Assembly: GCF_021401125.1 (NCBI RefSeq)
Contig: NZ_JACBFQ010000004.1
Location: forward strand, 186,001 to 250,000
DNA length: 64,000 nt
Reading direction: 5' to 3'
Source: Xanthobacter sp. NM-59
GTDB lineage: Bacteria; Pseudomonadota; Alphaproteobacteria; Rhizobiales; Xanthobacteraceae
Shown: one piece after another, positions 10,890 to 63,262 of the stretch
How the letters are laid out: each line of letters begins with the position of its first letter
Numbering within the stretch: position 1 is the stretch's first letter
Notes under the pieces: generated by a model
What the model saw: only the letters and a program-made list of their open reading frames with translations
Told to the model about the DNA's origin: nothing
The model's database searches: none
Position numbers and translations under genes: made by a program

Positions 10890-10903
10890 TTGATTTCGAT
10901 CAA
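10890..10903. promoter_or_regulatory. Perfect FNR/FixK box
   Basis: TTGAT-TTCG-ATCAA matches the FNR/Anr/FixK consensus TTGAT-N4-ATCAA exactly. With the box centred at -41.5 the transcript would begin near 10938, right at the start of the P-type ATPase gene. This predicts low-oxygen activation of the ATPase and probably the stress protein behind it. Confidence 0.8.
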
Positions 10904-10941
10904 GTAATGGCGCGCCATGGGGGCGTCACACGCGCTTTGTG

Positions 10942-13707
10942 ATGCCGTCATCAGGGGCAGGTGCATTGACCTTGGCAGATCAGGACCACCGTTCGGCCGC
11001 TTCCTCTTCCTCGCAGAACAGCACCGCCGACTGGCACGCTCTGGTGCCATCGCAAGTTTTCATTGCGCTGGACACGGGCGCATCGGGAATTTCGAGCGAA
11101 GAGGCGCGCCATCGTCTTGAGCGCCATGGCCCCAATGCCCTGCCGGAGGCGCCGGCGCGCAACCCGATCTTTCGTTTTCTGGCGCAGTTCAATAACGCCC
11201 TCATCTATTTCCTGCTGGCGTCCGCCGTCGCGGCGCTGGCACTCGGCCATACCATCGACGCGGTGGTCATCGTCGCGGTGGTGAGCGTCAATGCGGTGGT
11301 GGGCTTCATTCAGGAGGGCAAGGCCGAACAGGCGTTGAGTGCCATTCGCGACCTTATCGCGCCCCATGCAGCCGTGATGCGGGACGGCGTGCGCACCTCG
11401 ATTCCGGTGCGCGAGCTGGTGCCGGGTGATCTGGTGCTGCTGGAAGCCGGCGACCGTGTGCCGGCGGATCTGCGCCTCGTGCATGCCCGAAACCTGCTGG
11501 TCGACGAGGCGATGCTGACCGGGGAGTCGGTTGCGGCGGAGAAGCACGAGGGTTCCGTCGCTGTCGATGCGCCGCTGGGGGATCGCGCCTCCATGGCGTT
11601 TTCAGGCACGCTGGTGGCGGCCGGGCAGGGGGCGGGCATCGCCGTGGCGACGGGCCGCGACACGCAGATCGGCCATATCAGCACCCTCATCGCCAAGGTC
11701 GAGCCGCTCACGACCCCGCTGCTGAAGCAGATCAACAGCTTTGGCCGCGGCTTCACCATCGTCGCCTTCCTGGCCTCCATTGCGCTGTTCGCTTTCGCGG
11801 TGCTGCTGCGGGGCTATGACTGGGTCGAGGCCCTCATTGCCGTGGTGGCCCTCGCGGTCGGCGCCATTCCCGAGGGGCTGCCGGCGGTCATCACCATCAC
11901 GCTCGCGATCGGCGTGCAGCGCATGGCCTCGCGCCGGGCGGTCATCCGCCGCCTGCCTGCGGTGGAGACGCTGGGCGCCACCTCAATCATCTGCTCCGAC
12001 AAGACCGGCACGCTCACCCGCAACGAGATGACGGCCCGCCGTCTGGTCACCGCGACCCACCAGCTGGAGGTCGATGGCTCTGGCTACGCGCCGCAGGGCG
12101 CCTTCAAGGCGATCGGGTCCGACGATGATGTGGCGGCCCTGGAGGCTGCGGAGGAGCTTATCCGTTGCGGTCTGCTCTGCAATGACGCGGCCCTCGCCCA
12201 TGCCGACGGGCACTGGCGCGTGAGCGGGGACCCCATGGAGGGGGCGCTTGTGACCCTTGCCGTAAAGGCAGGGCTCGATCCCGATCATCTGCGCTCCGAA
12301 TGGCAGCGGCAGGACGAGATCCCCTTTGATGCCCAGCATCGGTTCATGGCCAGCCGGCATCGCCATCCGGGCGGCGGCGCGGTGCTGTTCGTGAAGGGTG
12401 CGCCGGAAGCGCTGCTGGGCCGCTGCCGCACGCAGGCCGGCGCGGCGGGCGTCGAGGCGCTGGACGCTGGCCATTGGAGCGAGGCCATCGCCCGGGCCGC
12501 GGGCAAGGGCGAGCGCGTGCTCGGCTTCGCTATGAAGGCCCAGGCCCAGGGCGTCGCGGAAGGGCGGCTCGGCTTTGCCGATGTGGATGGCCTGTGCTTT
12601 CTGGGCCTGGTCGGCTTCATCGATCCGCCCCGGCCGGAGGTCATCGATGCCATCGCCGAATGCCGCTCGGCGGGCATCTCGGTGAAGATGATCACCGGCG
12701 ACCATGCGGCCACTGCCGCCGCCATCGCCGGCCAGCTCGGCCTTTCTGATCACCTGGAGGTGGCCACGGGCGCCGAGGTGGATGCGGCCTCGGACGCGGA
12801 GCTCGCCTTACTGGCGACACGGGCCAGCGTGTTCGCGCGCACAAGCCCGGAACACAAGCTGCGCATCGTTCGGGCCCTGCAATCCACCGGCGCCGTGGTG
12901 GCGATGACTGGCGACGGGGTCAATGACGCCCCCGCGCTCAAGCAGGCGGACGTGGGCGTGGCCATGGGCGTCAAGGGCACGGAGGCCGCGAAGGAGGCCT
13001 CGGAGATGGTGCTGCTGGACGACAATTTCGTGTCCATCGTCTCCGCCGTGCATGAGGGGCGCACCGTGTACGACAATGTGCGCAAGGTGATCGCCTGGAC
13101 GCTGCCCACCAATGGCGGCGAGGTTCTGGCCGTCGTCACGGCGATCGTATTCGGCTTCGTCATGCCCATGTCGGCGGCGCAGATCCTCTGGATCAACCTC
13201 ATCACCACCATCACGCTGGGTCTGGTGCTGGCGTTCGAGCCCGCCGAGCCGGATGTGATGCGCCGCCCGCCCCGCCGTGCGGATGCTCCACTGCTGACGC
13301 GGTTCCTGCTGTGGCGTGTGTTCTTCGTTTCGGTCCTGTTCGCCGCCGGCACGCTTTCCATTTTCTTTTACGCACTGGGCGAAGGTCGGGATCTGGCCAC
13401 GGCGCGCACGCTGGTGGTGAATGCCATCGTGGTGCTTGAAATCTTCTACCTGTTCAACGTGCGCTTCATGCACATGACCTCGCTGACCTGGCGGGGTGCG
13501 CTGGGAACGCCGGCGGTGCTGCTGGCGCTGGCGGGCGTCATTGCCGCGCAATTCGCGCTGACCTATCTGCCGGTCATGCATGAATTGTTCGGCACCACCC
13601 CGGTAACACTGTCCGATGGATTGATCATCATCGCTGCGGGGGTGATCTTCATGGCCATTCTCGAGGGCGAGAAGGTGGTCATGCGCCGGTTCGGCTTGGC
13701 CGATTGA
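10942..13707 (+). CDS. P-type cation-transporting ATPase (P2-like, Ca2+/monovalent type)
   Basis: A P-type ion pump of about 921 residues, organised like P2A/P2-type calcium or cation pumps. In order: N-terminal cation-ATPase domain with RLERHGPNALPE, first membrane pair, actuator loop with the TGES motif (about 190), spans with PEGLPAV, phosphorylation site Asp353 in SDKTGTLTRNEM, nucleotide domain with KGAPEALL, hinge TGDGVNDAPALKQAD, and a C-terminal block of about six spans. No heavy-metal CPx motif is present, so it is not a P1B pump. The start is uncertain: GTG 10939, ATG 10942 and in-frame TTG codons at 10966/10972 are possible, and a promoter driven by the upstream FNR box would favour the later ones. 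The transported ion is not determinable here. Confidence 0.9.
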   Translation: MPSSGAGALTLADQDHRSAASSSSQNSTADWHALVPSQVFIALDTGASGISSEEARHRLERHGPNALPEAPARNPIFRFLAQFNNALIYFLLASAVAALALGHTIDAVVIVAVVSVNAVVGFIQEGKAEQALSAIRDLIAPHAAVMRDGVRTSIPVRELVPGDLVLLEAGDRVPADLRLVHARNLLVDEAMLTGESVAAEKHEGSVAVDAPLGDRASMAFSGTLVAAGQGAGIAVATGRDTQIGHISTLIAKVEPLTTPLLKQINSFGRGFTIVAFLASIALFAFAVLLRGYDWVEALIAVVALAVGAIPEGLPAVITITLAIGVQRMASRRAVIRRLPAVETLGATSIICSDKTGTLTRNEMTARRLVTATHQLEVDGSGYAPQGAFKAIGSDDDVAALEAAEELIRCGLLCNDAALAHADGHWRVSGDPMEGALVTLAVKAGLDPDHLRSEWQRQDEIPFDAQHRFMASRHRHPGGGAVLFVKGAPEALLGRCRTQAGAAGVEALDAGHWSEAIARAAGKGERVLGFAMKAQAQGVAEGRLGFADVDGLCFLGLVGFIDPPRPEVIDAIAECRSAGISVKMITGDHAATAAAIAGQLGLSDHLEVATGAEVDAASDAELALLATRASVFARTSPEHKLRIVRALQSTGAVVAMTGDGVNDAPALKQADVGVAMGVKGTEAAKEASEMVLLDDNFVSIVSAVHEGRTVYDNVRKVIAWTLPTNGGEVLAVVTAIVFGFVMPMSAAQILWINLITTITLGLVLAFEPAEPDVMRRPPRRADAPLLTRFLLWRVFFVSVLFAAGTLSIFFYALGEGRDLATARTLVVNAIVVLEIFYLFNVRFMHMTSLTWRGALGTPAVLLALAGVIAAQFALTYLPVMHELFGTTPVTLSDGLIIIAAGVIFMAILEGEKVVMRRFGLAD

Positions 13708-58495: not shown

Positions 58496-58936
58496 ATGCC
58501 CGCCGCATCTGGAAGATTTGATTTCACAGAGCCTATGGTGGTTATTCGGGTCATCTGCGGTTTGTTTTATTTTCCGCATTCGATCTCAAAGATCGTCGGC
58601 TTCACCGGCACGGTGGGCTTTTTCACGCGGGCGGGCTTCTATCCGCCTGAGGGCTTTGTGGTGCTCTCGGTAATCATGGAGCTCACCAGTGCCATCGGTC
58701 TCACCCTTGGCCTGTTTCCCAAGTATCTCGGCATCCTCTCCGCCGGCCTGATGCTGGTGGCGGGCTATGCCACTGCGCGCGTTCACGGCCTCAGCTGGTT
58801 CTGGGCCGGGCACGGTGTGGAATATCTGGTGTTCTGGGGGGTGGCCTCGCTCGCGGTGGCCCTCGACGCCTGGAACAAGAACCCCGGCTTCTTCGGCTTC
58901 TTCGCCTGGCCGCTGCGCCGGGAGAAGGTTTCCTGA
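58496..58936 (+). CDS. DoxX-family membrane protein
   Basis: 146 residues with four predicted membrane spans and the DoxX signature: RVICGLFYFPHSISKIVGF at the N-terminus and SVIMELTSAIGLTLGLFPKYLG in the middle, ending with LDAWNKNPGFFGF. DoxX proteins were first seen as a subunit of an archaeal quinol oxidase; most bacterial ones are of unknown function, some in thiol or redox stress. AGGA lies before the ATG. Confidence 0.87.
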   Translation: MPAASGRFDFTEPMVVIRVICGLFYFPHSISKIVGFTGTVGFFTRAGFYPPEGFVVLSVIMELTSAIGLTLGLFPKYLGILSAGLMLVAGYATARVHGLSWFWAGHGVEYLVFWGVASLAVALDAWNKNPGFFGFFAWPLRREKVS

Positions 58937-59026: not shown

Positions 59027-61090
59027 TCAGGCCGCCGCGTGCTTGCCGCGCCCCGCGAGCAGAGAGCGGATGAGCACGGCGATGGTGGTTCCGTTATGCA
59101 GGGCTGCTGTGGCGATAGGCGAGAGATAGCCCAGCACCGCGCCCGCCAGGATGGCCGAGTTCGCTCCCACCGCCACGTTGAAGTTCGAGCGGATGAGCCG
59201 CATGGTGGCCTGCGAAATCTCCACCATGTCCGCGAGCGAATCGAGCCGGTCGTCGGTGAGCACGATATCGGCCGTGGCGCGGGCGATATCGGCGGCGCGG
59301 GGCATGGCCACGCCCACATGCGCCGTCATCAGCGCCGGGCCGTCATTCACCCCGTCGCCCACGAAGGCCACCTTGGCTCCCGAGGCCTTCAGCTCCGCGA
59401 CGATGCGGGCCTTGTCCTCGGGCTGCTGCTCGTAGAACACGTCGTCGAGCCCCAGCGCCTCGCCCAGCGCCAGTGCCTTGGCCTTGGCGTCACCGGTGAT
59501 CATCACGATGCGCTTGATGCCCAGCTCGCGCAGGCGGGCCAGAGTGGCGGGGGTTTCCTCGCGCACCCGGTCGCGCAGGGCGAACATGGCCAGTGGCTTC
59601 TGGTTGCGGGCCGCATAGAGCAGCGACTTGCCCTCTTCCTGGAAGCTCGCCACCTGCGCGCGCTGGCGGGCGAAGGAGATGTTCTCGTCATCCTCCAGGT
59701 AATGGCGGCTGCCGAAGCGGATCATGTCGCCATCCACTTCCGCTTCCACGCCGTGGCCCACGATGAAGTTCACCTCTTCATGGGGCACATGGGCCAGCTT
59801 GCGCTGGCGGGCGAGCTTCACTACGGCGCGGGCGATGGGGTGGTTGGTGTGCTCGCCCAGAGAGGCCACCAGGGCCAGCGCCTCTTCCTCGTCCACATGG
59901 GGGTGGAGGGGGCAGACGTCCGTCACCTGCAGCGTGTTGTGGGTGAGGGTGCCGGTCTTGTCGAACACCAGGGTGTCCACATCGGCCAGCAGCTCAATGG
60001 CCTGGCCGCTCTTCACGAGGCAACCCTGCTTGGCCGCCTGGAACATGGCGGTCTTGAGCGCGATGGGGGTGCCGAGCTTCACGGTGCACGAATAGTCCAC
60101 CATGAACACCGATTCCATGCGCTTCCAGTCCCGCGTCAGCGCGAACACGCCGGCGGCCGAGCCGAGGGTGATGCCCACCCGCCGGTCCGCCAGCGCATCC
60201 GAAACCGACTGGATCTCCGCCGGCCGCTCCAGCGCATCCTGGATATAGCGGGCGATGCGGCCGGTGGTGGTGGCCTGGCCCACCCGCTCGGCGCGGATGA
60301 CGAGCCGGCCGTCGGTGACGATGCCACCCGCCAGAGCCGTGCCGCCCGGCGCGCGGGGGATGGGCAGGCTCTCGCCGGTGACGGCGGACTGGTCCACATA
60401 GGCGTCGCCCGCCACCACTGTGCCGTCCACTGGAATGGTTTCGCCGAGGCCGACCACCACATGCTCACCGCCGGTCAGGCTGTCGAACGGCACCTGGAGC
60501 ATCTCGCCCTGCCCGGCCTCGATCCAGACATCGTCGGGCGAGCGGTGGAGCAGGGAGCGCAGGAGTTCGTCCGAGCGCTCGATGGTGGTGGATTCGATAT
60601 ATTCCGCCAGCTCGACCAGAAGGCGCGTGAAGTTCGCGGTGGTGAACTCGCCGCGCGCGGTGGGCAGGCCCATGGCGATGGCGTCGAGCACTTCCACCTT
60701 CAGGCCGTGCTGAATGGCGGCGGCGATGCCACGAACGATGGTTGGCGCAATGTTCGCGTAGGTGAGCGCCGCGGCCGCCGGCCGCGGCAGCAGCCGGGCG
60801 GCCACCAGGGTCGCCGCCGACAACACCAGCGGCGCGGCATCGGAGGCCTCGCCCTGCACCAGAGGCGGGGCGTTGGCGGGGGGATTGGCGGCCCGGGCGA
60901 GGATCCGCGCCCGGGCATCGGCGCTGCCGTCATAGCTGACGATCAGGCCATGGCAGCCGGCATTCATGCGCACGGCCTTGACGCCGCGCACATCGCGCAC
61001 GGCAGTGGCCGCCCGCGCCAGCCGGGAAACGTCGCCGCCGAGCCGCAAGCGCATGCGGCCCGGGACTTCGTGAACGATGCGGACGCTCAC
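59027..61090 (-). CDS. P1B-type ATPase, SCT-motif, FezB-like
   Basis: 687 residues. Starts with a degenerate heavy-metal-associated domain (VPGRMRLRL...RGVKAVRMNAGCHGLIVSYD) that lacks the CxxC metal pair. The transport site in the fourth-type membrane segment reads DYSCTVKLGTPIAL with Cys335 and no CPx/CPC, while D377 in FDKTGTLTHNTLQ, the HTNHPIARAV form of the HP motif (about 411) and GDGVNDGPALMTAHVGVAM confirm a P1B pump. Short membrane part, with about six spans. This fits P1B-6 ATPases, the class of FezB in iron-storing ferrosomes. It is the last gene of a four-gene unit, 7 bases after its neighbour. Confidence 0.85.
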   Translation of the reverse strand: MSVRIVHEVPGRMRLRLGGDVSRLARAATAVRDVRGVKAVRMNAGCHGLIVSYDGSADARARILARAANPPANAPPLVQGEASDAAPLVLSAATLVAARLLPRPAAAALTYANIAPTIVRGIAAAIQHGLKVEVLDAIAMGLPTARGEFTTANFTRLLVELAEYIESTTIERSDELLRSLLHRSPDDVWIEAGQGEMLQVPFDSLTGGEHVVVGLGETIPVDGTVVAGDAYVDQSAVTGESLPIPRAPGGTALAGGIVTDGRLVIRAERVGQATTTGRIARYIQDALERPAEIQSVSDALADRRVGITLGSAAGVFALTRDWKRMESVFMVDYSCTVKLGTPIALKTAMFQAAKQGCLVKSGQAIELLADVDTLVFDKTGTLTHNTLQVTDVCPLHPHVDEEEALALVASLGEHTNHPIARAVVKLARQRKLAHVPHEEVNFIVGHGVEAEVDGDMIRFGSRHYLEDDENISFARQRAQVASFQEEGKSLLYAARNQKPLAMFALRDRVREETPATLARLRELGIKRIVMITGDAKAKALALGEALGLDDVFYEQQPEDKARIVAELKASGAKVAFVGDGVNDGPALMTAHVGVAMPRAADIARATADIVLTDDRLDSLADMVEISQATMRLIRSNFNVAVGANSAILAGAVLGYLSPIATAALHNGTTIAVLIRSLLAGRGKHAAA

Positions 61091-61097
61091 GACGCTC

Positions 61098-61733
61098 TCA
61101 GCTCTCGCTGGCGGGCGAGGCAGCGGGCACCACGTCCGCGGGCTCCACGGGGGCGGCGGGCGCGGTGGCGGCGGCCACCTCCGCCTCGGCGTCGTGCAGG
61201 CGCTCCTTCAGCTCCTCGACACTGCCTTGAAGGAAGCTCCACACCTGCACCGCGGTGCGCAGAATGGTGCGCTGGGCCGATTCATTGGTGAGCAGGTAGG
61301 CCGCGCCGGCGCCGACCACCAGGCCCTTGATGAGCGAATCGGCTGCCGGGTGCTGGTGCCAGTTGAAACCGGTGCCAGCCTGCGTGCCTTGCGGGCCCTG
61401 GGCGCCATTCGCGCCCGTGGCGCCGCCGGGAGCAAACGGGAATCCGGGCGGAGGAAAGCCGGGCGGGACCGCGCCGGCCCCGGCATTGTGGCCGTGCGAA
61501 CCGTGAGCACCTGCCGCTGGACCGCCCGCACCCTGGCCCCCCTGGGCGCCGCCCATGCCACGGCCGCCCCGACGCTGGGCGCCGTCCTGCCCGCCGTCCT
61601 GGGCACCGGCTTCGGACGTGGTTCCGCCCATCCCATTATCGCCGCCCTGGGGGGCGAAGCCCTCGCCGGGGCCGTAGCCATAGAAATGATAGTGGTAGTG
61701 CACGCCCTGGCTGGAGCCGTGGTCGTCGGACAT
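61098..61733 (-). CDS. His/Gly-rich membrane-anchored protein
   Basis: 211 residues: a short N-terminus with GVHYHYHFYGYGPGEGF (His and aromatic residues), a long Gly/Ala/Pro low-complexity region (about 30-130), one hydrophobic segment (GLVVGAGAAYLLTNE, about 140-155), then an amphipathic/charged tail (VEELKERLHDAEAEVAAATAPA). YtxH-like in layout, no sequence family recognised. It is followed 7 bases on by the P1B ATPase. The His-rich segment could bind metal; a membrane-shaping or granule-associated role is inference from context. Confidence 0.7.
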   Translation of the reverse strand: MSDDHGSSQGVHYHYHFYGYGPGEGFAPQGGDNGMGGTTSEAGAQDGGQDGAQRRGGRGMGGAQGGQGAGGPAAGAHGSHGHNAGAGAVPPGFPPPGFPFAPGGATGANGAQGPQGTQAGTGFNWHQHPAADSLIKGLVVGAGAAYLLTNESAQRTILRTAVQVWSFLQGSVEELKERLHDAEAEVAAATAPAAPVEPADVVPAASPASES

Positions 61734-61781
61734 GATGGAAACTCCTGAATTTCTGTTCGCGGATGGGGGTTCGGCGCGCGG

Positions 61782-62267
61782 TCACGCCTTGGGGGGAACC
61801 TCCGAGGAATCCGGCGACGCGGCGGCCTTGCTGAAGACGGAGGAGAAGACGGAGCGCACGTCGGGCCGGTTCAACAGCACCACGACACCGACCCCAATGG
61901 CCGTCCCGATCCAGAAATTGGAGCCGCTCGCCCGCGCGATGCGGGTGAGGTTGGACAGGCTGAATCCATCCTTCAGCACCCCCTCCAGGACATCCAGAGC
62001 ATCAATGCGCGGCGGGCCGCCCGCGCCCTGCGGGCCACCGGCTTGCGGCCCGTACCCACCCTGCGGTCCGTAGCCCGGCTGGGCGCCAAAGCCGCTCTGC
62101 GCGCCATAGCCCTGCTGGGGTCCGTAGCCGGACTGCTGGCCATAGCCGCCTTGCGGGCCGGCGCCGGCATTCCAGCCGCCATAAGAAGACCACTGGCCGG
62201 ACGCCTGCGGGCCGCCCTGGGTCGTGCCGGACTGCTGGTTGTCCCATTGCGGGTACTTCTTCGACAT
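61782..62267 (-). CDS. Gly/Gln/Tyr-rich membrane-anchored protein
   Basis: 161 residues from ATG 62267 (GAGGAC upstream). The N-terminal half is a repeat of GYGPQQGYGAQ-type units (Gly, Tyr, Gln, Pro), like a prion-like or phase-separating segment; the second half has ALDVLEGVLKDGFSLSNL and one span (FWIGTAIGVGVVVLLN). Together with the next protein in the operon it gives two different low-complexity proteins each with a single span, a striking pairing. Function unknown; an open frame upstream to 62366 overlaps the HMA gene but starts without signals. Confidence 0.68.
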   Translation of the reverse strand: MSKKYPQWDNQQSGTTQGGPQASGQWSSYGGWNAGAGPQGGYGQQSGYGPQQGYGAQSGFGAQPGYGPQGGYGPQAGGPQGAGGPPRIDALDVLEGVLKDGFSLSNLTRIARASGSNFWIGTAIGVGVVVLLNRPDVRSVFSSVFSKAAASPDSSEVPPKA

Positions 62268-62346
62268 CGGCTTCGTCCTCGAATCAAAATGCGAAAAGTG
62301 AAATGGCGGGACCTGGCTTTCCTGCGCGGCGCGCCGGGCGTCGGTT

Positions 62347-62652
62347 TCAAACCACGTGGGCCGCAAGCGCCCGCTCGACCTCCTCGGCGTCCGCCACCAG
62401 CAGGCGCGGCCAGAGCGCGGGGGGGATGAGATGGGGGTCGTATTCCACCACGACGGTCAGGGCCGCCGCGTTCAGCCGAGTCGTCTTCACGCCCCGGATG
62501 CGGCCCACCAGCATGACGAATGGCTCCGGATCCACCTTTGGCAGGTGCATGAGGGCGGCCAGATCCAGCTTCAGCCGGATGCGGCCGGGCACGTGGTGGG
62601 CGATGGAAACGAACCGACGCAGGTGCAGGAAAGGGGAAAGGTCTGGAATCAT
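62347..62652 (-). CDS. Small HMA-like protein of the ATPase cluster
   Basis: 101 residues. Its core HHVPGRIRLKL...RIRGVKTTRLNAAALTVVVEYD aligns with the N-terminus of the ATPase in this cluster (VPGRMRLRL...RGVKAVRMNAGCHGLIVSYD), so both carry the same degenerate HMA domain with GRxRL motif and no Cys pair. It is the first clear gene of the unit. Such stand-alone copies occur in fez clusters; role unknown, possibly a partner for the pump. Confidence 0.75.
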   Translation of the reverse strand: MIPDLSPFLHLRRFVSIAHHVPGRIRLKLDLAALMHLPKVDPEPFVMLVGRIRGVKTTRLNAAALTVVVEYDPHLIPPALWPRLLVADAEEVERALAAHVV

Positions 62653-63262
62653 CGAACCGTCTTGTCCTCGTCACCCGCCCGATTGGGAGTTTCCGGCCTT
62701 GCGCCGATGCTGGCACCATGGCGCCGCTGCGCCTGGCCAAGGGGTGCACGGGCGCCGGGCCTTTCGGATGGCGCGGCGGGGCGCCGCCGTGCCCCACGCC
62801 GGGGTTTCTCATTCATCGAGAAAATGCCGCCAACCTTCTGCGTATTCGGGCGAAGGTGGGCCGACTTAGAGCCATTCCAGGAGCTGTCTGGGCCGTGCGA
62901 TGAGCCGGCGAGCGCAGTCGCGCGCATCGCGTCGAACAGTCTCAGATGCGTCATCGGCTCTGACTCCGTCGATCTGTCGCGCGCAGGTGCGTGCCGGCGT
63001 GACGACCTATCCTATAGTCCTGCCACGTTTGTCGCGAAAACAGAACATATACTTTGACATATGTCACCGGAATCGAGTGTCGCGCTGAAAATGTTCGATG
63101 AAATCAAAGATTGGAATTAGTATAATCAAAAAATAACAGGATGACTGCTTTGGGGGGGTGAATGCGCGGTGCACAGGGGCTCTTGATGGCGCTGGCCAAC
63201 GGGCGCGCGCCATCAAGCCCGCCCGGGCAGGGCGGGGGCTCATTTCGTGCGGGGCAGTGAGG
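62653..63262. other. AT-rich regulatory gap upstream of the ATPase cluster
   Basis: 610 bases without a firm gene. Around 63010-63150 the base composition falls to AT-rich, unlike any other place in the window, and the perfect palindrome TGACATATGTCA lies at 63055-63066. A basic frame (62649-62954, overlapping the HMA start by ATGA) is open but has no motif or clear start signal. Promoters for the ATPase cluster are expected here. Confidence 0.5.
63055..63066. promoter_or_regulatory. Palindromic site TGACATATGTCA (FixK/FNR-like)
   Basis: A perfect 12-base palindrome, in the larger context TTTGACATATGTCACC. It matches the FixK/DNR-type pattern TTGAC-N4-GTCAA except for the last base (C). It lies about 400 bases upstream of the HMA gene on the same promoter side. 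Other dimeric regulators (TetR, MarR) are also possible. Confidence 0.4.

Follow-up and report, generated by a model that had tools for sequence, protein, structure and literature searches.

Does a strain of Xanthobacter carry the genes for a ferrosome, a membrane-bound organelle in which iron is stored? The question is raised by four genes at positions 59027-62652 of a 64,000-nucleotide stretch of DNA from Xanthobacter sp. NM-59 (assembly GCF_021401125.1, contig NZ_JACBFQ010000004.1, positions 186,001 to 250,000 of the forward strand), the whole of which is called the window and supplies all coordinates used here. A preliminary description of this DNA had proposed a ferrosome (fez) cluster, a kind of locus built around the P1B-type ATPase FezB. 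That assignment is upheld: by its sequence the locus is a reduced fez operon, with an ATPase inside a well-supported FezB clade and with conserved neighbours, and from this we infer the organelle. It is quite likely that FezB of this four-gene operon pumps ferrous iron into ferrosome vesicles, probably at low oxygen.

The locus comprises four intact genes on the minus strand, reading from 62652 to 59027 in the order HMA protein, LC1, LC2 and ATPase, and all four frames are open at the positions first reported. The first gene (62347-62652, minus strand) encodes a stand-alone HMA_2-type protein of 101 residues with the signature HHVPGRIRLKL and no Cys. It is followed by genes for two low-complexity (LC) proteins. 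LC1 (61782-62267, minus strand; 161 residues) is rich in Gly, Ser and Gln (33, 18 and 16 residues), has GYGPQ-type repeats and one C-terminal hydrophobic segment, SNFWIGTAIGVGVVVLL; its reading frame opens with a TTG at 62366, and the likely ATG start at 62267 was picked from the frame and from comparison with Xanthobacter agilis. LC2 (61098-61733, minus strand; 211 residues, of which 44 are Gly and 36 Ala) is YtxH-like and has a Gly-rich N-terminal part and a short hydrophobic segment, then EELKERLHDAEAEV. The ATPase (59027-61090, minus strand; 687 residues) contains DYSCT, HNGTT and DKTGT and an N-terminal HMA_2-like domain. Against X. agilis, the ratio of nonsynonymous to synonymous substitution rates (dN/dS) is 0.082 for the HMA protein, 0.182 for LC1, 0.271 for LC2 (the alignments of LC1 and LC2 contain gaps) and 0.131 for the ATPase. 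These low values indicate purifying selection on each of the four, which are therefore not chance reading frames. The locus is flanked by an MntP-like gene (63820-63263) and a DoxX-like gene (58496-58936).

The identity of the ATPase is central to the argument. An alignment with ten relatives supplied the profile used for genome searches, and the tree held 40 sequences: 26 FezB-like ATPases and, as controls, 14 other P1B ATPases that include three pumps of the window genome. The 26, among them the window ATPase and that of genome G250, form one clade (support 100/99) apart from the other 14; long branches occur in four controls and in two clade members (L024 and L099). The window ATPase branches first with X. 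agilis (100/99), then with G010 (98/96) and then with Paracoccus versutus (100/100). Searches at E ≤ 1e-130 found 25 genomes of the same family, 12 of which, the window's included, fall in the FezB clade; among the 13 weaker matches, all ten that were put in the tree lie outside it (G060, G396 and G413 were left out).

The metal-site motifs of the ATPase include the SCT noted earlier, as DYSCT, together with HNGTT; CPC and an N-terminal CXXC are absent. The pattern D[YF][SA]C occurs in 26 of 26 FezB-like sequences and in none of the 14 controls, and HNG.T in 24 of the 26 (the exceptions are L099 and the shortened frame of L106), again against 0 of 14. By motif and tree position the ATPase is of the FezB type and not a copper or zinc pump. 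The preliminary description had named a clear grouping with such pumps as one outcome that would refute its proposal; in the tree, the ATPase is separate from the three CPC pumps of its own genome. It may belong to class P1B-6.

Two further observations concern P1B ATPases more broadly. FezB-like sequences are poorer in strongly hydrophobic segments, with a mean of 2.0 over a threshold of 1.4 versus 5.4 in controls. A related but distinct P1B group outside the FezB clade (L061-L066; three genomes of genus g25 and three of other genera in family f1) carries DYGTGIR at the position of CPC or DYSC. Five of its six loci (the sixth is cut by a contig end) include a gene for an HMA_2 partner, and LC2 is missing from this group.

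The small proteins and the domain they share with the ATPase bear out the earlier reading of them. The HMA protein scores 25.1 bits against Pfam HMA_2 (E 2e-5), under the 30-bit cut-off, and of the 13 family members that were aligned, 11 reach E ≤ 0.01 with this model; H20, GR and N61 are invariant in this family and H19 nearly so. Its predicted structure (AlphaFold2; predicted local distance difference test score, pLDDT, 80.6) gave no match in the PDB at E ≤ 0.001, and its weak matches include copper-domain chains (6a71, 3cjk, 2aw0 and 2qif; probability 0.8-0.9) amid many gyrase chains. The N-terminus of the ATPase matches HMA_2 weakly (11.8 bits, E 0.23) and the profile of the stand-alone HMA proteins at E 8e-8; in relatives, the two domains align with each other at 33-44% over 58-61 residues. 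In the ATPase model (AlphaFold2, three rows; mean pLDDT 39), residues 1-70 have block means of 69-87 and show strands and helices in the order seen in the HMA protein; the rest of the model was not used. LC1 and LC2 each have a single, short hydrophobic segment, with 15-residue peaks of 2.35 and 1.81; the 19-residue peak of LC2, 1.39, is just under the threshold of 1.4 applied to other proteins. The YtxH label of LC2 is weak (13.2 bits), and YtxH is matched at E ≤ 0.01 by three of 13 family members.

Conservation of these neighbours was assessed with profiles from a seed set, scanned over 25 other FezB-clade loci and 16 control loci, five of which (the window genome's own) have only 1.5 kb flanks. 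An LC2 homologue lies directly upstream of FezB in 24 of the 25 loci and in 17 of the 18 that were not in the seed set; the single miss, L106, has FezB at a contig end. None of the 16 control loci has LC2 at E < 1e-3 (one match is at 0.01), and a smaller control scan gave two matches at 0.005-0.006. A stand-alone HMA gene is upstream in 20 of the 25 (none was found there in L018, L024, L104, L105 and L106), TM2 is present in 16, and the LC1 profile is matched at E < 1e-5 in 15. The order HMA-LC1-LC2-FezB without TM2 is found in the window, X. agilis, G010, P. versutus and G058, and G806 (L103) resembles this four-gene form with one HMA gene added downstream. Another relative, G154, has a reaction-centre PufM identical to 1prc, which we take to be from Blastochloris viridis. 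Its FezB lies on the window's side of the tree, and its locus has the HMA protein, LC1 and an LC2 with a Pro/Gly/Tyr-rich N-terminal part; it differs in having TM2 and an extra HMA_2 gene downstream. Small membrane proteins and HMA_2 proteins encoded on the same strand, a trait of fez clusters, are conserved around FezB in the window and its relatives. The preliminary description would have been undercut by a lack of such neighbours in related fez loci; they were found, also in the locus of the Rhodopseudomonas palustris type.

This last locus permits a comparison gene by gene. In genus g29, four genomes contain a FezB-like gene that scores about 900 bits, and one of them, G250, has a reaction-centre PufM identical at 253 of 253 positions to PDB 6z5r chain M. 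The fez locus of G250 (L057) has six co-directional genes, for an HMA_2 protein with a membrane segment, a stand-alone HMA_2 protein, a one-segment protein, TM2, a YtxH-like protein and FezB. Their number is that published for the R. palustris ferrosome cluster: strain CGA009 is reported to make ferrosomes from six genes, RPA2333-2338 (PMC12016538). An expression study describes rpa2333-2338 as lowered in low light, with 56% of the lowered genes related to iron (PMC6879726). Window FezB is 42% identical to that of G250 (E 3e-158), the HMA protein matches its homologue in G224, also of the R. palustris type, at 39% over 88 residues (2e-18), and LC2 matches the YtxH-like protein of G182, of the same type, at 37% over 46 residues (1e-6 in a single comparison). 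Strand and order agree as well, with the YtxH-like gene directly upstream of FezB. Gene-by-gene orthology, which the preliminary description had left without support, is established for the HMA protein, LC2 and the ATPase; for LC1 the gap persists.

Other known ferrosome systems are likewise described as pairing a Fez ATPase with small membrane proteins: FezA/FezB in Clostridioides difficile and FezB/FezC in Desulfovibrio magneticus (PMC12574912, PMC10979944). FezC, reported for D. magneticus and D. indicum, is a DUF4405-like cytochrome. DUF4405 had no Pfam match in the four window genes, a scan that a divergent FezC may escape. Four other gene kinds of the R. palustris type also gave no match, which suggests that FezC is not universal. 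No publication was found on Xanthobacter and ferrosomes, or on ferrosomes in Rhodopseudomonas and Shewanella together, in a literature search whose scope left out most subscription journals.

Which metal such clusters handle is indicated by the genes around them. FeoB adjoins fez on the same strand in four of 25 loci (L015, L016, L056 and L104), compared with none of 11 control loci in a search with one FeoB query, and this points to ferrous iron. Annotation also places FeoA and TonB receptors next to fez in Cereibacter and an iron ABC transporter next to it in Azospirillum; the neighbours in Arcobacter are TonB receptors, ChaN and a DUF2202 gene. The last of these, on Arcobacter plasmid CP134847 (L027:3965-4645), follows the HMA gene; it matches Rubrerythrin/DUF2202 at 18-19 bits, below cut-off, and has a C-terminal hydrophobic segment, so that it perhaps encodes a membrane-tethered ferritin-like domain.

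Control by oxygen is suggested by upstream sites in some relatives. The FNR-type box TTGAT-N4-ATCAA was sought in 24 loci, the window's included (L101 and L106 were left out), within 500 bp upstream of a hand-chosen first gene (feoA in L015 and L016). It occurs at nine or ten of ten positions in 11 of the 24, against about 0.9 expected, a sum of per-locus figures from random stretches of the same loci; the 11 amount to about seven independent groups, and P. versutus has an exact box. Three RirA-type matches and one Irr half-site match were seen in loci other than the window's. Elsewhere in the window, at 10890-10903, an exact FNR-type site, TTGATTTCGATCAA, lies just before a P-type ATPase frame (10939-13707; 128 bits with the FezB profile).

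Taken together, gene content, homology to the R. palustris type, clade membership, purifying selection and, in some relatives, linkage to feo directly support a fez operon. From them we infer an iron substrate here, vesicle formation, a scaffold role for LC1 and LC2, and control by oxygen. LC1 and LC2 would sit in the cytoplasmic membrane, gather FezB into a patch and help to bend the patch into vesicles. FezB would fill the vesicle with cytoplasmic ferrous iron for storage, probably under low oxygen, a vesicle-filling role suggested by its homology and by the iron links. Its own N-terminal HMA_2-like domain and the stand-alone HMA_2 protein would serve it by handing over or sensing iron. The strain would, on this basis, probably make an iron compartment like that of R. 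palustris.

Several findings weigh against this reading. The tree was built without FezB of D. magneticus, Shewanella or C. difficile, and G250 is named from PDB 6z5r, which we take to be a structure from R. palustris. (As a Shewanella anchor, G934 was tried and rejected: it has six MtrB/PioB matches, of which the two tested reach only about 300 bits versus 6r2q.) LC1, searched with its profile, has no match in the R. palustris-type loci L057-L060, and FezB of that type belongs to a different sub-clade from the window's. Conversely, the TM2, one-segment and HMA_2-membrane proteins found there have no counterpart among the 497 reading frames of the window or by tblastn, the sole match of the HMA_2-membrane protein being the HMA gene itself. 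The window locus thus has four genes against six and lacks the complete R. palustris content, which is the set of one species and not a definition. FeoB was not found beside the window cluster, and the only FeoB_C match of the genome is on another contig. Upstream of the window genes there is no pattern for Irr or RirA and no good FNR box: the best scores 7/10, equalled by half of random stretches. This possible FNR/FixK-type site (GTGACATATGTCAA; 63054-63067, minus strand) is weak and not significant alone, being one of four window matches to a looser one-mismatch pattern, with 2.06 expected. A possible remnant of a feoA start (MTHLRLFDA; 62927-62954, minus strand), MAHLILF in X. agilis, is a lead only. 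Aligned to the feoA start of G010, it does no better than shuffled sequence, which scored as high in 84 of 300 trials; the other shuffle count for this idea was 58 of 300.

A bolder and rather unlikely form of the proposal is that of a minimal ferrosome: the Gly/Gln/Tyr-rich parts of LC1 and LC2 would condense on the membrane, give the iron vesicle its shape and so replace the separate membrane proteins of the six-gene type, in a unit that may once have travelled as a feo-fez operon coupling the uptake of ferrous iron to low-oxygen storage.

The locus might instead be a fez descendant without organelles, reduced to a pump that exports or detoxifies ferrous iron with the help of metal-binding accessory proteins. 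The three missing genes of the six-gene type and the lack of an adjoining FeoB fit such a history, which we nevertheless regard as rather unlikely: selection has been maintained on all four genes, and the four-gene form is shared with X. agilis, G010, P. versutus and G058 and is therefore a stable set rather than a decaying one. Other bacteria may also manage with fewer than six genes: for C. difficile, a review names only FezA and FezB as required, with sufficiency unstated (PMC12574912).

Somewhat less probable still is an efflux platform of the mycobacterial PacL1-CtpC kind, in which single-segment proteins cluster a plasma-membrane ATPase and metal is exported, with no organelle. PacL1 is described as a scaffold for a P1B ATPase, with a single membrane segment and a repeat region of low complexity (PMC9374683). 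Such platforms lend support to the scaffold idea for LC1 and LC2 and at the same time provide the main rival that needs no organelle. The search that found the FezB loci also returned a Rhodococcus plasmid ATPase with a partner gene of DUF1490, presumably the PacL family. However, the DUF1490 protein is not homologous to the fez proteins at profile level (best 3.4 bits against profiles that include LC1, LC2 and TM2), the Rhodococcus ATPase contains CPC and falls outside the FezB clade, and R. palustris, with genes homologous to those of the window, is reported to make ferrosomes (PMC12016538). That the ATPase is a copper or zinc pump misread as FezB is very improbable: general P1B profiles do exceed their cut-offs on it (TIGR01525, 474 bits; TIGR01512, the cadmium family, 345 bits), and it is the missing CPC and the tree that carry weight against the idea, because 10 of the 14 controls also lack an N-terminal CXXC.

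Within its own lineage the fez operon is sparsely distributed. A single-protein query, which can miss divergent types, found FezB orthologues in six of 121 relatives at E ≤ 1e-110. With the window's genome counted each time, fez is present in three of 14 genomes of the genus, and FezB at E ≤ 1e-170 in two of 289 genomes of the class and eight of 398 of the phylum. X. agilis LMG 16336 carries a 91% match. The 69% copy in P. versutus, a species listed in the Paracoccaceae, is placed by the tree beside the Xanthobacter sequences, which makes horizontal transfer likely. In ten fez-less genomes of the genus, the cimA region retains cysS and cimA, with DoxX in four; neither fez genes nor mntP were found in these 16-18 kb regions. 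It seems, therefore, that the cluster was added close to a conserved site and that mntP came with it in the window and X. agilis; in G010, fez is about 4 kb from cimA, with no mntP within the stretch. Genus g29 holds both FezB types, L056 (G234) on the window's side and L057-L060 in the opposite sub-clade, which suggests replacement by transfer. Photosynthetic reaction-centre genes are present in 10 of the 11 fez-bearing genomes tested (G056, G058, G102, G133, G154, G182, G224, G234, G250 and G271; not G439).

The preliminary description had held that ferrosomes would be notable in the Xanthobacteraceae. The setting is less exceptional than this implied, because the R. palustris genome and the window's share the family label f1 in the GTDB-based grouping; NCBI separates them, with Rhodopseudomonas in the Nitrobacteraceae and Xanthobacter in the Xanthobacteraceae. 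The finding extends ferrosome-type gene sets to Xanthobacter, documents a four-gene fez form shared by several bacteria, and links fez to ferrous-iron uptake (feo) genes and anaerobic-type boxes in some relatives. Working profiles are now at hand for five fez families (HMA, LC1, TM2, LC2 and FezB) and can be searched elsewhere. With the four-gene set present in X. agilis, a named species, it becomes possible to ask which genes suffice for an iron organelle.

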